A stretch of DNA of 64,000 nucleotides from the NCBI GenBank assembly GCA_017465465.1, contig JAFTWE010000043.1, positions 1 to 64,000 on the forward strand. Reading direction: 5' to 3'. Under the pieces are notes generated by a model, which worked only from the letters and a program-made list of their open reading frames with translations, made no database searches and was not told the DNA's origin. Of the stretch, positions 23,130-62,699 are shown piece by piece. This DNA is from Clostridia bacterium. Lineage in GTDB: Bacteria; Bacillota; Clostridia; Oscillospirales; Acutalibacteraceae. Position numbers and translations under genes: made by a program. Each line of letters begins with the position of its first letter. Positions within the stretch are counted from its first letter, which is position 1.

Positions 23130-23486
23130 CTATTTATTATTTTTCGCAGTTTTAAGAGTTGAAACCAAAATTCGCTTTATTTCAAGACAATCATCAAGCA
23201 AAGACATACCTTCTTTTTCTGATATATAATCAGACAGCATCAACAGCCTAAGCCAATATTCAGTTTCCGCAGTTTCTTTTAAAGATATCTGCAATTTAGC
23301 TATAAAATCCGCTTTACTTGAACCGTAAATTGCTTCGTTGGCATTGGCACCGATGCTTGTTCCAGAACGAATAATTTGTTTTGAAATTACTGTTTCTTTT
23401 TTCTCTTTAATAAGATGCTTATAAAGTTTTACAATTCGTGCGGAAAATCTCAAAGACTTATCGAGAATAATACTGTTTGCAGACAT
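23130..23486 (-). CDS. Four-helix-bundle protein (23S rRNA IVS / S23 family)
   Basis: 118 residues. The pattern SLRFSARIVKLYKHLIKEKK, ISKQIIRSGTSIGANANEAI and ADFIAKLQISLKETAETEYW is that of the TIGR02436/S23 family, first seen inside rRNA intervening sequences and also relatives of the Avd protein of diversity-generating retroelements. The cellular role is unknown. No reverse transcriptase is nearby. I chose ATG 23486 with AAGGAG upstream; a longer frame reaching 23552 would read through an AT-rich repeat. Next to a tRNA block and to a pair of inverted repeats (see 23503-23628). Confidence 0.85.
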   Translation of the reverse strand: MSANSIILDKSLRFSARIVKLYKHLIKEKKETVISKQIIRSGTSIGANANEAIYGSSKADFIAKLQISLKETAETEYWLRLLMLSDYISEKEGMSLLDDCLEIKRILVSTLKTAKNNK

Positions 23487-23502
23487 ATCTTTTCTCCTTT
23501 CG

Positions 23503-23628
23503 GATAATAAATAAGAGATAATAATGAATAGATAATAATACAAACAGCGCACGATTCTTTCACGTTCACTATTATCTATTATTTATTCAATATTATCTCT
23601 TATCTTAGCCTCGAACGAGGCGCTGTTT
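23503..23628. repeat. Imperfect inverted repeats between four-helix gene and tRNA-Gln
   Basis: Two nested pairs are visible: AAACAGCGC (23542-23550) with GCGCTGTTT (23620-23628), and AT-rich arms around ATAAATAAGAGATAATAATG and its near complement at about 23570-23605. The outer GCGCTGTTT ends on the first base of the encoded CCA complement of tRNA-Gln. Confidence 0.6.
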
Positions 23629-23702
23629 GGCTGGGATGGCTGGATTCGAACCAGCGGATGAGGGAGTCAAAGTCCCTTGCCTTACCCCTTGGCGACACCC
23701 CA
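23628..23702 (-). tRNA. tRNA-Gln (anticodon TTG)
   Basis: 75 bases with CCA. Acceptor TGGGGTG/CATCCCA, anticodon stem around CTTTGAC gives TTG, T loop TTCGAAT. Last of four tRNAs on the minus strand; separated from tRNA-His by a terminator-like hairpin. Confidence 0.95.
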
Positions 23703-37336: not shown

Positions 37337-37582
37337 CTAATACATATTCACAGAAATTATCGACCAGCCCTCAAAGCCATCACGATAAAATCCTTTAGAA
37401 TCGTATCCTCCTTCGCCAACAGAACGAAAATATCCCATATAATCATAACCACCTTCGCCTGCTGACCTAAAGTAGCCCTTGGCATCATAGCCACCCTCAC
37501 CGGGTGAACGAAAATAACCCAGGGCATCATAACCGCTTTCACCTCGGGTACGGTAAATACCCTTTCCGTCATAATATCCCAT
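37337..37582 (-). CDS. Protein of tandem 14-residue GYFRS repeats
   Basis: 81 residues, of which 70 (residues 4-73) are five head-to-tail copies of a 14-residue unit, consensus YDxKGYFRSxGEGG; the outer copies diverge (YDGKGIYRTRGESG; YDSKGFYRDGFEGW). Ends WSIISVNMY. No Cys, no membrane span. Similar low-complexity 'YDSKGxYR' proteins occur in Clostridia, function unknown. There is no clear Shine-Dalgarno; the ATG follows the Sel1-protein stop by 7 bp, so translation is likely coupled. Fourth gene of the operon. Confidence 0.75.
   Translation of the reverse strand: MGYYDGKGIYRTRGESGYDALGYFRSPGEGGYDAKGYFRSAGEGGYDYMGYFRSVGEGGYDSKGFYRDGFEGWSIISVNMY
37364..37573 (-). repeat. Five tandem 42-bp coding repeats
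   Basis: In-frame direct repeats encoding the 14-residue units; the three central copies are most alike at DNA level (all contain GGTGAGGG/GGCGAAGG-type and TATGATGCC/TATGAT cores), so copy number could vary by slippage. Confidence 0.7.
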
Positions 37583-45921: not shown

Positions 45922-46196
45922 GCAAAGGGAGCTGGATTTTTGCGAAGCAAAAAGACTGAGGGATTGTCACCCTGCCAACAAGAAAAACCACCTTTGATAT
46001 TCCATTTTTTCGGGAGAGCACAGAGTCCCTCCCTTACGAGCTCGCTTGCAGGAAATGCGCTTGCCGACATTCCTTGGACTCTATGTTGCGGTGCGACGAA
46101 AATCGCCGCACCCTACTCTCGGTTGAGGGGGGCTGTTATGTATCTCTCCCTCCGTCTTTTGCTACGCAAAATCCACCTCCCTCGTCAGAGGGAGGC
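45911..46196. repeat. Composite intergenic repeat (two inverted copies of a 55-bp module)
   Basis: Module A (about 45911-45965) reads GGCTCCCTTGTGCAAAGGGA then GCTGGATTTTTGCGAAGC then AAAAAGACTGAGGGATT; module B (about 46145-46196) read in reverse gives CCTCCCTCTGACGAGGGAGG, TGGATTTTGCGTAGC, AAAAGACGGAGGG. Same layout, stems diverged. Between them is GGTGCG-N...-CGCACC (about 46091-46111). No gene; about 350 bp of this gap is explained by the element. Similar GGCTCCCTTGT...GACTGAGGGA repeats are, to my knowledge, scattered in Clostridia. Confidence 0.65.
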
Positions 46197-59450: not shown

Positions 59451-59566
59451 TTGAAGGTGTACCCCCTGTCTATGTCTTTATACACTCATTATAAACACCG
59501 CATTTACAGTTGTCAATATTTTACAATGCTTTCAGAACAACTCGCAGGTTGTTACTACTAACTATT

Positions 59567-59709
59567 AAACCCAATGGGTTTAGTGATATTCTATTCGCCA
59601 ATAACTTGCGAAGCAAATAACACTTGGCTGAAAGCCAAATATCACTGCGAAGCAATATCACTCGCCATATGGCGAATAAAACTGCCGAGTGTCCTTACGA
59701 ACACTCGGC
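59567..59709 (+). repeat. Ordered hairpin array, copy 1
   Basis: A run of short palindromes separated by nearly constant 9-mers. In order: AAACCC-AAT-GGGTTT; AGTGATATT; junction CTATTCGCCAATAAC; TTGC-GAA-GCAA; AATAACACT; TTGGCT-GAA-AGCCAA; ATATCACT; TGC-GAA-GCA; ATATCACT; CGCCATATGGCG; AATAAAACT; then GCCGAGTGT-N8-ACACTCGGC with loop CCTTACGA. Noncoding, immediately downstream of the BspA-like gene. Confidence 0.85.
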
Positions 59710-59726
59710 TAAGCACCCTGCGTTTG

Positions 59727-62360
59727 TTATTTTTCTGCTACGATTGTGAGGGTATTGTCGATATCCTCCCAGCCGTCTGCTGTTTTAATGCGGAAAGTTA
59801 CTGTATTTTCACCAACATTATACATCTTTGCTCTGACATTGAAGACTGTAGATTCTTCGCCCACTTCGGGGTTATTAAAGGTTGCAGTTACTTTGCCGTT
59901 AACTACGGTCTGCACCTTTACAACATCCAGGCCTGTTTCAACTCTGATTGAGCAGAACTCATAAAGCTTATGAGATTCACATTCTTCGTGAGAGATTGAA
60001 TATATATCCTTACGGTCTCTTGAAAGCTCAAAATCAAATGTAAGGCTGGATTCAAGCGGTTCCCACTCTGAGCCGTATTTTGCGTGAATGTAATATGTGT
60101 TTTCCTGTATGGTTGAATGAACAGTCCATACTTCGTAAGCAATTTCGCGAGACAAATCACCAACAACATTGCCGTCAGCGTCATAGCTTACAATATCAGC
60201 CATAGCTCTTGTATAAGTTGCAGTGAAAAATGTGTTTTCTTTTACAACAAACTGAATTTTATCAGCTCTGCCGTCAACCTTAAATGTAAAGTCAGTGCCA
60301 ACATAAGCAGTTTTCGGATAGTCAACAGAAAGCACCTTAGAGGCTGCTTTTGCCTTGTAATCAAATGTATTTGATTCTTTGACTGTTCCGTTTGCAAATG
60401 TAGCTACACAATAATATATGCCGTCCTCAGTTGCAGTAAGCTCGGCTGCTGACTGACCTTCCACAAAAGATACTTCAGATTCAGATTTATAAACTCTGAT
60501 ATTTACGGGCTCATCGGCTACTGCATAGACTACATAAACACCTGACTCAGGTACTGTAACTTCAGCTTTACCGTCAGCATCAGGCGCAGCACTATACGAA
60601 GCACTGTCATAAAGCCAATCACTTACACCTACTTCAAAAGCAGTGCCGTCAACCTCAAAAAAGAGTTTATCATGCGCGTTGAGTGTTACAAAGAAATAAC
60701 AATAATTATAGTATTCCGGGCAACCGCTCCAACCTGATTCAGGGTCGTAAGCACCGTATATGCCTGACTCGGTGCTGTCGTAAGTATAAGGGTCAGCATT
60801 TTCATCGGTAAATTCAACAGGAGCTGTGTCTGAATAACCGATTTTGCACCATTCGTAGGTTGCACCCTCGCTGTTAGAGAGCTCAACATAAGGCTCATCG
60901 GTTGTTGGCTGATGAGTAATGCAGTCAGTCATTGCAAGAGTGGCACTGAATGTAGCATCATTGTCATAACTGCTGAAAAAGAAGTAGTATGTTTCACCTG
61001 CAACTGCCTCAAAGGTGCCGTCAAAGAGCAAGCTTGAGTCAGTATCATCAAGGTATGCTATCTGAGTGAGATTTGAATCATAAACAGTTACTACGGAATC
61101 ATCAGCATTGCTCAATGCTGCAGAATATAAGCGATATTCACCGGAAATGGTGGGAACAAATTGATAGTAAATTCCGATATGAGCTTCTTCAAGGTAATAT
61201 GTAATTGTGTCTCCTACCTTCATTTCAGGGTACGGAACCTCACAACCGCACAAATCACAAATGCCGTCTAAATCATTGTGGATATGAGAACAAATTTCAC
61301 CACAAGTCCCGCAAACACCGTTAACCATATCGTGACCTGTGGCAGGAATAACTACACCTGAAACAAATTCTTCACATTCTTCACAGAAATAACCGCCGCT
61401 TTCACTGCCGTCTTTCAAACAAGTGGGCTCACTGCCCTCGGATTTAAAATCATCCTCAGAAATATAATGCACGGTTGCATTTGTTAAAAGATCATTATCA
61501 GCTGAGCTGATATCTGTGGCTTCGAACTGTTCCTGAGTGCCGAGGTAATGAACATGAGTAAGCTTAGTGTTATAAAAAGCATAATTACCGACCGACTTAA
61601 CATTTGAGCCAAAGACTACGTTTTCAAGCCCTGAGTTCATAAAGCAGCCTGAACCGATTGAAGTTACAGATTCAGGAATCAGGATTCTCTTGAGTTCATC
61701 ACAGGCAAAAAAGCAGTTTGAAGGAAGCTCGGTTATTCCGTTTCCGAAAGAAAAATATTCAATGCACGCGCCATAGAAAACACCTTCATTTAAAAGTTTA
61801 ACTGTATCAGGAACGATAAGATTTTTAATAACCGTGTTACCTTTAAACGCCTCCTCACATATTTCGGTAACTGAAGCAGGGATTGTAAATGTATCGCCCG
61901 CTTTTGCAGAGGGATAGTAGATGAGCTTTGTTTTGTCAATATTATAGAGAATTCCTAATTCCGAAGTAAAATACTCATTATCAGGGGAAACAGTTATTAC
62001 CTCAAGGCTCTCACAAACAAAAACATCACTATCTTCGATTGACTCAACAGTTGAAGGAATTGAGATTGTTTTGATGCTGTTGAGTTGATAGAAAGCAGTG
62101 TCAATAATATCGGTTACACCTTCAGCAATAACAACGGAGTAAACTTCGTCATTATAATCGAACCAGGGCAAGTCATACCAATATTCGCCGGCTCCCATAG
62201 AGCCTGAACCGCTGATGGTGAGAACACCGTCAGAGTCGATAGACCAGCTTACGGTATCGGTAAGCTGACCGGAATGAACAACATCAGCCGCAAAAACGAA
62301 CGGCGTTGATGACAAAATCATCACAACCGCCAGAGCAACGGCTAATAATCTTTTTTTCAT
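59727..62360 (-). CDS. BspA-like leucine-rich-repeat surface protein
   Basis: 877 residues. Signal peptide (KKRLLAVALAVVMILSSTPF...FAA), a short beta segment (VSWSIDSDGVLTISGSGSMG), then LRR_5 repeats to about residue 295 (YSVVIAEGVTDIIDTAFYQL; IKTISIPSTVESIEDSDVF; RILIPESVTSIGSGCFMNSG). A Cys-rich linker follows (YFCEECEEFV; GVCGTCGEICSH; ICDLCGCEVP) and further beta-sandwich domains (YYQFVPTISGEYRLYSA; FNNPEVGEESTVFNVRAKM). No LPxTG or membrane tail. ATG 62360 chosen with AAAGGAGG. An extracellular adhesin-like role is inferred. Flanked on both sides by hairpin arrays in opposite orientation. Confidence 0.87.
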   Translation of the reverse strand: MKKRLLAVALAVVMILSSTPFVFAADVVHSGQLTDTVSWSIDSDGVLTISGSGSMGAGEYWYDLPWFDYNDEVYSVVIAEGVTDIIDTAFYQLNSIKTISIPSTVESIEDSDVFVCESLEVITVSPDNEYFTSELGILYNIDKTKLIYYPSAKAGDTFTIPASVTEICEEAFKGNTVIKNLIVPDTVKLLNEGVFYGACIEYFSFGNGITELPSNCFFACDELKRILIPESVTSIGSGCFMNSGLENVVFGSNVKSVGNYAFYNTKLTHVHYLGTQEQFEATDISSADNDLLTNATVHYISEDDFKSEGSEPTCLKDGSESGGYFCEECEEFVSGVVIPATGHDMVNGVCGTCGEICSHIHNDLDGICDLCGCEVPYPEMKVGDTITYYLEEAHIGIYYQFVPTISGEYRLYSAALSNADDSVVTVYDSNLTQIAYLDDTDSSLLFDGTFEAVAGETYYFFFSSYDNDATFSATLAMTDCITHQPTTDEPYVELSNSEGATYEWCKIGYSDTAPVEFTDENADPYTYDSTESGIYGAYDPESGWSGCPEYYNYCYFFVTLNAHDKLFFEVDGTAFEVGVSDWLYDSASYSAAPDADGKAEVTVPESGVYVVYAVADEPVNIRVYKSESEVSFVEGQSAAELTATEDGIYYCVATFANGTVKESNTFDYKAKAASKVLSVDYPKTAYVGTDFTFKVDGRADKIQFVVKENTFFTATYTRAMADIVSYDADGNVVGDLSREIAYEVWTVHSTIQENTYYIHAKYGSEWEPLESSLTFDFELSRDRKDIYSISHEECESHKLYEFCSIRVETGLDVVKVQTVVNGKVTATFNNPEVGEESTVFNVRAKMYNVGENTVTFRIKTADGWEDIDNTLTIVAEK

Positions 62361-62426
62361 TATAAAACCTCCTTTAAAACATCTGCAAATTTCACAGATA
62401 TTCCTTGACAAAATTCTATCAAACAC

Positions 62427-62521
62427 AAACCGACAAAGTCAATAGGTTTATTGATTTTTCTTGTAAAAATTCAATACTGATTTTTATATATTTTAACGAA
62501 CAACAAAATAGGCAGGATATA
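62427..62521. other. AT-rich upstream region of the BspA-like gene
   Basis: Between the gene and the second hairpin array. I see no gene; the minus-strand promoter of the surface protein should lie here (TTGTCAAGG near 62405-62410 and AT-rich blocks), but no convincing hexamer pair stands out. Confidence 0.4.
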
Positions 62522-62699
62522 GGCGTTGTACCCGTAAGGATACAACGCCAGTTTTATTCGCCATACGGCGAGTTGTATTGCTTCGCAGTTTTATTGTGCT
62601 TTGCACAGTGTTATTTGCTTCGCAAGTTTTGTGGCGAACAAAATAACACTATTGTCACAAGACAATAATATCACTCTGCCGTAAGGCAGAATATCACTT
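62522..62699 (-). repeat. Ordered hairpin array, copy 2 (inverted relative to copy 1)
   Basis: Read in reverse: CTGCC-TTAC-GGCAG; AGTGATATT; ATTGTC-TTGT-GACAAT; AGTGTTATT; junction TTGTTCGCCACAAAAC; TTGC-GAA-GCAA; ATAACACT; GTGC-AAA-GCAC; AATAAAACT; GC-GAA-GC; AATACAACT; CGCCGTATGGCG; AATAAAACT; GGCGTTGTA-N10-TACAACGCC. Same element order as copy 1 with different stems. Confidence 0.85.

Follow-up and report, generated by a model that had tools for sequence, protein, structure and literature searches.

The two ordered hairpin arrays that flank a surface-protein gene in the window (the whole 64,000-nucleotide stretch of a Clostridia bacterium genome, contig JAFTWE010000043.1, that was analyzed) are best explained as S23-less copies of the cis-acting part of a family of small mobile elements built around the S23 (23S_rRNA_IVP, PF05635) four-helix-bundle protein, a reading to which we assign a probability of about 0.6. 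The inner part of the arrays is the Rfam family Gut-1 (RF01706), listed as a stand-alone gut RNA, and our analysis showed that it is not stand-alone but belongs to the 5' part of a mobile unit of about 0.6 kb. This suggests that Gut-1, and many unexplained 7-nt repeats in bacteria, may be footprints of this one element family.

The initial annotation reported two inverted, identically ordered hairpin arrays around a gene it named a BspA-like adhesin, with stems that differ on both arms together, and this observation was confirmed. In both copies the order is a long hairpin (h1), a 7-nt spacer, a TCGCC..GGCGA hairpin (A-A'), three small hairpins each separated by exactly 7 nt, a second GGCGAA copy (A''), and inverted spacers with further hairpins. 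Two corrections apply: the copy near 59.6 kb is best read on the minus strand, where it starts 15 nt after the adhesin stop codon, and its inverted half is degenerate, with one clear hairpin against two in the other copy. Loci and genomes compared in this study are numbered L and G, respectively, and R1 is the covariance model described below. The features of the window are as follows.

59546 to 59712, minus strand: array copy 1 (W1), without S23; R1 hit of 136.9 bits, E 1.3e-26, and Gut-1 hit of 53.3 bits at 59612-59684.
59684 to 59709, minus strand: W1 h1, GCCGAGTGTTCGTAAGGACACTCGGC, the same sequence as in the G000:C42 copy and in L046 of a related species.
59662 to 59675, minus strand: W1 hairpin A-A' (TCGCC ATAT GGCGA), helix 2 of the covariation analysis.
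59624 to 59654, minus strand: W1 small hairpins h3 (59646-59654) and h4 (59624-59638), with 7-nt spacers GTGATAT.
59606 to 59616, minus strand: W1 small hairpin h5, TTGCTTCGCAA, preceded by spacer GTGTTAT.
59593 to 59599, minus strand: W1 A'' (GGCGAAT), alternative partner of the 5' arm of hairpin A.
59567 to 59589, minus strand: W1 inverted half, with spacer ATATCAC and hairpin AAACCCATTGGGTTT.
62520 to 62698, plus strand: array copy 2 (W2), without S23, between murE and the adhesin gene; R1 hit of 156 bits, E 1.5e-30.
62522 to 62549, plus strand: W2 h1, GGCGTTGTACCCGTAAGGATACAACGCC, identical to h1 of the S23-linked element L085 in a genome of another family.
62551 to 62632, plus strand: W2 left half, with heptads GTTTTAT, GTTGTAT, GTTTTAT, GTGTTAT and GTTTTGT alternating with hairpins at 62558-62571, 62579-62587, 62595-62607 and 62615-62625.
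62633 to 62639, plus strand: W2 A'' (GGCGAAC).
62643 to 62697, plus strand: W2 right half, with inverted heptads ATAACAC, ATATCAC and ATATCAC and hairpins at 62650-62667 and 62675-62690.
59727 to 62426, minus strand: surface protein (the BspA-like adhesin of the initial annotation, not annotated further here).
23130 to 23486, minus strand: S23 four-helix-bundle gene elsewhere in the window, downstream of tRNA-Gln (23631-23702); PF05635 E 6.4e-25, TIGR02436, and PDB 2rld, with five chains, E 1.7e-31.
23487 to 23630, minus strand: leader of that S23 gene, with outer stem AAACAGCGC/GCGCTGTTT, 7-nt repeats (AAGATAA GAGATAA ...) and their inverted copies, without hairpins; GATAAT occurs twice on the left and three times inverted on the right, and a 14-nt tandem period was detected at 23503-23539.

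Further copies in the genome, and covariation once more copies were aligned, were two of the points on which the initial annotation had said it could fail, and both were found. The covariance model R1, built only from 13 arrays outside the window, six of them beside S23 genes, detected both window copies over its full length. On the same 13 sequences (alignment A2) 85.7% of cells in the named hairpins were paired and 54 cells had a change on both sides, compared to 22.3 +/- 3.6 in shuffles (0 of 500 shuffles reached this value), and sliding the partners destroyed the signal. The three spacers between the small hairpins were exactly 7 columns each. The 5' arm of hairpin A can also pair with A'' about 100 nt downstream; this outer stem, read at a slide of -1 column, formed in all 13 sequences with one pair changed on both sides, so each array has two competing folds. 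Similar A/A'/A'' triplets were visible in most of the other array classes that we inspected. A strict A-A'-A'' word test recovered only 14 of 48 loci (0.2 in shuffles).

The interpretation offered in the initial annotation was partly supported. Its inference of selection on the folded form was supported by the covariation and by the outer stem, but a role in inverting the segment 59710-62521 was not supported. The genome holds at least 13 Gut-1-type hits, so the arrays are not special to the adhesin, and the other arrays found sit singly after genes or tRNAs and are not paired around a gene. In the sister species G008, cyclophilin and murE are present at the same place with different DNA between them, and the whole block of adhesin, W1 and W2 (59.5-62.96 kb) is absent, which makes it an indel rather than an inverted segment. 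Both orientations had been sought as the mark of an invertible segment; with one genome per species and no reads, and with the block missing from the sister species, the comparison decides neither way for the population. The block's absence is one of the presence/absence differences seen between species.

Arrays of this type were widespread. Thirty-seven of 60 related genomes had Gut-1-type hits, with up to 48-51 recorded in one draft genome (a limited number of candidates was taken per genome), many at contig ends. A pattern scan of named genomes yielded at least 118 contigs, nearly all from Clostridia or Oscillospiraceae MAGs and mostly from ruminant guts. Spacer words differed by lineage (GTGAAAT, GTKATAT, ATGATAT, TAATGAAG, GAAATC ...), but in full units the right half carried the reverse complement of the left.

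The arrays showed a strong preference for site and orientation. Of 126 arrays on the 118 contigs, 49 followed a same-strand tRNA, of at least 15 isotypes, and none had a tRNA on the opposite strand or downstream. In 40 of these the distance from the tRNA 3' end to the inner pattern was 64-88 nt, and the usual junction was CCA|GAAAA. Two arrays (L024 and L026) lie after sequence that we read as the 3' end of tmRNA. The terminator-like h1 was the same next to different RNAs (L024, L026 and L035), so it travels with the element. The GTKATAT class, to which the window copies belong, mostly starts 15-24 nt after a stop codon.

Next to many arrays is an open reading frame for S23 (PF05635, TIGR02436), a protein known from 23S rRNA intervening sequences. 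In 20 genomes, 14 of 67 S23 genes started 134-174 nt downstream of a Gut-1 hit on the same strand (counted by hand), compared to about 0.05 expected from hit density. Several counts in this study were made by eye from tables. On the pattern-fetched contigs, 11 of 12 S23 domain hits, some of which are pieces of one gene, started 165-388 nt downstream of an array, although about 90% of these arrays had no S23 nearby. Thirty-nine of 48 S23 genes had an inverted-spacer array upstream, compared to seven downstream and 3.3 in shuffles, and 22 had a same-strand tRNA upstream (none opposite). Some of the 48 had been fetched through arrays, but among the 27 fetched through S23 the counts were still 19 and 10. 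Units next to different tRNAs were homologous from the tRNA end to the S23 stop codon and not beyond, which defines the ends of the unit, and L076, L083 and L085 showed the same for the class of the window copies. A promoter (TTGAAA-17-TATAAT in L111, L124, L143 and L164) starts where the array ends. The S23 3' end often holds AAGGAG and overlaps the ATG of a variable next gene (ATGA in 9 of 37 full-length genes by script, and more by eye).

Presence/absence at one site and sharp ends in different contexts, the properties expected of a mobile element, were both observed. At tRNA-Ser(GCT), species G003 (L239) has the tRNA, a native terminator and dCMP deaminase, whereas G009 (L240) has the tRNA, h1, array, S23, an acetyltransferase and then the same deaminase (gene names assigned by eye). 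L103 and L164 each have two near-identical array-only units in different contexts, with identity starting at (CCA)GAAAA and ending at ATTTCACT; one copy has one extra spacer-plus-hairpin module. No clear target-site duplication was seen at the L103 and L164 ends, and duplications and transposase-type terminal inverted repeats were not examined systematically; assignment to DNA transposons or MITEs is left undecided. No enzyme for movement was found, and none was searched for in depth. Array-only derivatives are about 0.24 kb.

The spacers are heptads, and other S23 genes showed the same without hairpins. In addition to the S23 gene at 23130-23486, a third S23 gene in this genome (L269) follows tRNA-Cys and has TTACTTT TTACTTT TTACTTC TTACCTC ... 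and the inverted set. Across the phylum, lag 7 was the best lag in 17 of 28 regions upstream of S23 and exceeded all 100 shuffles in 16 of 28 (controls, 1 of 27 and 2 of 28), with 11 of 28 also just downstream; among S23 genes on plasmids, mostly cyanobacterial, lag 7 exceeded all shuffles in 12 of 15. Two distant S23 loci (L294 and L296) have 11-nt repeats instead. Three of the phylum loci (L290, L295 and L302) and Azospirillum L323 lie inside 23S rRNA and two (L297 and L299) inside what we read as RNase P RNA (rRNA and rnpB recognized by eye); there, heptads precede and inverted heptads follow the open reading frame. In genome G115, ten matches to an AACTAGT heptad pattern all flank one S23 gene.

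The architecture of the unit (h1, four to five heptad spacers alternating with hairpins, a second copy of A', inverted heptads with hairpins, promoter and S23 gene), its single orientation directly after tRNA CCA ends or just after stop codons, its ends, its presence/absence and the heptads flanking S23 genes in distant bacteria, including classical intervening sequences, all rest on direct observation. How the element works is inferred. We propose that the S23 homopentamer binds the single-stranded heptads, about one per protomer, of the folded element, as RNA or as single-stranded DNA, and helps its copying or insertion through a nucleic-acid intermediate with an enzyme acting in trans. The competing stems could be the switch between an S23-open and a closed form, and landing after RNA genes and stop codons would make insertion harmless. 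S23-heptad binding has not been shown in any work that we found, and the match between a pentamer and four to five heptads is a numerical hint. In hairpin-type units the array lies upstream of the S23 promoter and behind a terminator and thus may not be transcribed with S23, and W2 is not behind the 3' end of a same-strand gene. In this view, the two copies beside the adhesin arrived with, or beside, an adhesin insertion and are not its switch.

The closest known system is the 23S rRNA intervening sequence with an S23 open reading frame, as in Coxiella burnetii (PMC4990558). It encodes S23, a homopentamer, has inverted ends and GACAGAT heptamers before the open reading frame, lies in an RNA gene, and is presumed to be selfish and horizontally moved, although that study suggests that S23 is not made in vivo in Coxiella. 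The units described here lie after tRNA CCA ends or stop codons, their heptads alternate with hairpins, both halves precede S23, a promoter is present, and most copies lack S23. The window copies share the heptads with inverted partners but fall outside the strict definition of an intervening sequence, being located outside 23S rRNA and having no S23 beside them, whereas homologous copies have one; excision by RNase III was not assayed. Avd of diversity-generating retroelements is a homologous four-helix bundle (PMC10053308 discusses PF05635 and Avd) that works with a reverse transcriptase in its own system, and no such gene was noticed beside these units, where it was not searched for systematically. 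REP/BIME and bcr-type multi-hairpin repeats are dispersed, palindromic, extragenic and often located after genes; they have no heptad spacing, no S23 and other termini, and they were not compared by sequence here.

Heptanucleotide repeat families include TAACTGA in Beggiatoaceae, Cyanobacteria and Bacteroidetes (PMC4679880, which proposes S1, Csp or Csr as binders) and GGGNATC in Xanthomonas and Nostoc (PMC4692102, which studies G-quadruplexes). Both are direct 7-nt repeats in intergenic regions, often of few units; in PMC4692102 four units are preferred, often within 50 bp of stop codons. No hairpins alternate with these repeats, and neither text mentions S23. A more far-reaching and tentative reading, which we consider somewhat less likely than not, is that S23 is a ring protein that reads 7-nt repeats, and that TAACTGA, GGGNATC, Gut-1 arrays and intervening-sequence repeats are the binding sites and footprints of one ancient family of S23-dependent mobile elements that insert into or behind RNA genes and stop codons. 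S23 intervening sequences, Gut-1 and heptanucleotide repeats are each known, and we found no paper that joins them in a search that did not cover most subscription journals, so priority is not proven. The proposed link recasts an Rfam noncoding RNA as half of a mobile element, gives the S23 family, long without a known function, a concrete candidate ligand that the 7-nt spacing and known pentamer make simple to test, and offers one testable cause for repeats that several papers describe without explanation. It also adds a class of small elements that enter at tRNA CCA ends and stop codons and can bring a promoter and a coupled gene.

Among alternative explanations, an independently expressed small RNA, as Gut-1 is filed in Rfam, is unlikely. 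W1 exceeds the Gut-1 gathering score (53.3 compared to 50 bits), the structure covaries, and PMC2864571 classes Gut-1 as a probable noncoding RNA, described from the human gut without gene association. However, W2 scored only 35.3 bits (62549-62619, plus strand), below the cut-off, and the 77 positions of the Gut-1 model equal the A hairpin and the next two hairpins with GUGAAAU spacers, which is only the left half of a longer unit in which the inverted half, promoter and S23 are co-conserved. The arrays lie behind terminators and before the next promoter, both strands carry the same motif, and the association with tRNA and S23 in ruminant-gut MAGs departs from the Rfam description; expression itself was not examined.

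A transcription terminator or 3'-UTR stabilizer of the upstream gene (the adhesin for W1) is equally unlikely. The h1 hairpin is terminator-like, with a T-run in tRNA-type copies, and the stop-codon spacing of the window's class fits such a role, but W1 h1 has no T-run, and this reading does not explain the inverted half, the heptad spacing, S23, presence/absence between species or the position of W2. Slightly less likely are integron-like cassette sites, in which the folded array is an attC-like recombination site and S23 plus the next gene is the cassette. Folded sites, fixed orientation and variable downstream genes whose ATG overlaps the S23 stop are consistent with this, but no runs of consecutive gene-array units were seen and the homologous unit ends at the S23 stop rather than at the end of the cargo; GTTRRRY boxes and an IntI integrase were not looked for. 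Inversion (phase variation) of the adhesin segment is very unlikely, because, although the two copies are inverted, flank the gene and match at best 83% over 121 nt, other arrays in the genome are single, the sister species lacks the block, the arms are short and diverged, and no recombinase was seen beside them.

PADLOC gave no hit for S23, and thus no known defence role. Same-direction arrays 4-5 kb apart in L051-L053 hold ordinary genes between them, which led us to reject a larger composite element. The TTGCGAAGCAA match at position 45940 of the window is another repeat and not an array.

At the tRNA-Ser (GCT) sites of three of the loci examined (L244, L246, and L248), a 194-nt insert located after the native terminator ends in a second copy of the tRNA 3' end (CCTTGTCCTCCGCCA), and in L244 the S23 element sits behind this second CCA. 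In nine loci (L012, L031, L050, L086, L094, L111, L124, L176, and L207), the S23 stop codon overlaps the ATG of a different gene each time, including those for a lipoprotein, an acetyltransferase, a P-loop kinase and unknowns, as if S23 were a leader for variable cargo.

Half arrays, which contain left spacers only, were detected in six loci (L106, L125, L126, L142, L147, and L152) and most of these end in GTTAAGG. The half array of L152 begins in the stop codon of the gene before it, and that of L126 lies right behind a GroEL-like C-terminus. Four near-identical copies of a half element within a longer repeat were present in species G013 (loci L058-L061), three of them at contig ends.

The S23 element of loci L297 and L299 appears to lie inside the RNase P RNA gene, with heptads on both sides. 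S23 genes with repeats were also found between cas6 and cas4 or between cmr genes on cyanobacterial plasmids (L310, L317, and L314), and S23 had previously been noted near cas genes (PMC3936711). In contrast to the 7-nt repeats, the S23 genes of L294 and L296 were flanked by 11-nt repeats (TTAAACGATAG).

Two other repeats were detected in the window:
45934-45975, another dispersed-looking palindromic repeat (GGGAGCTGGATTTTTGCGAAGCAAAAAGACTGAGGGATTG) near a gene start
37422-37543, a 42-nt tandem repeat present in 2.9 copies
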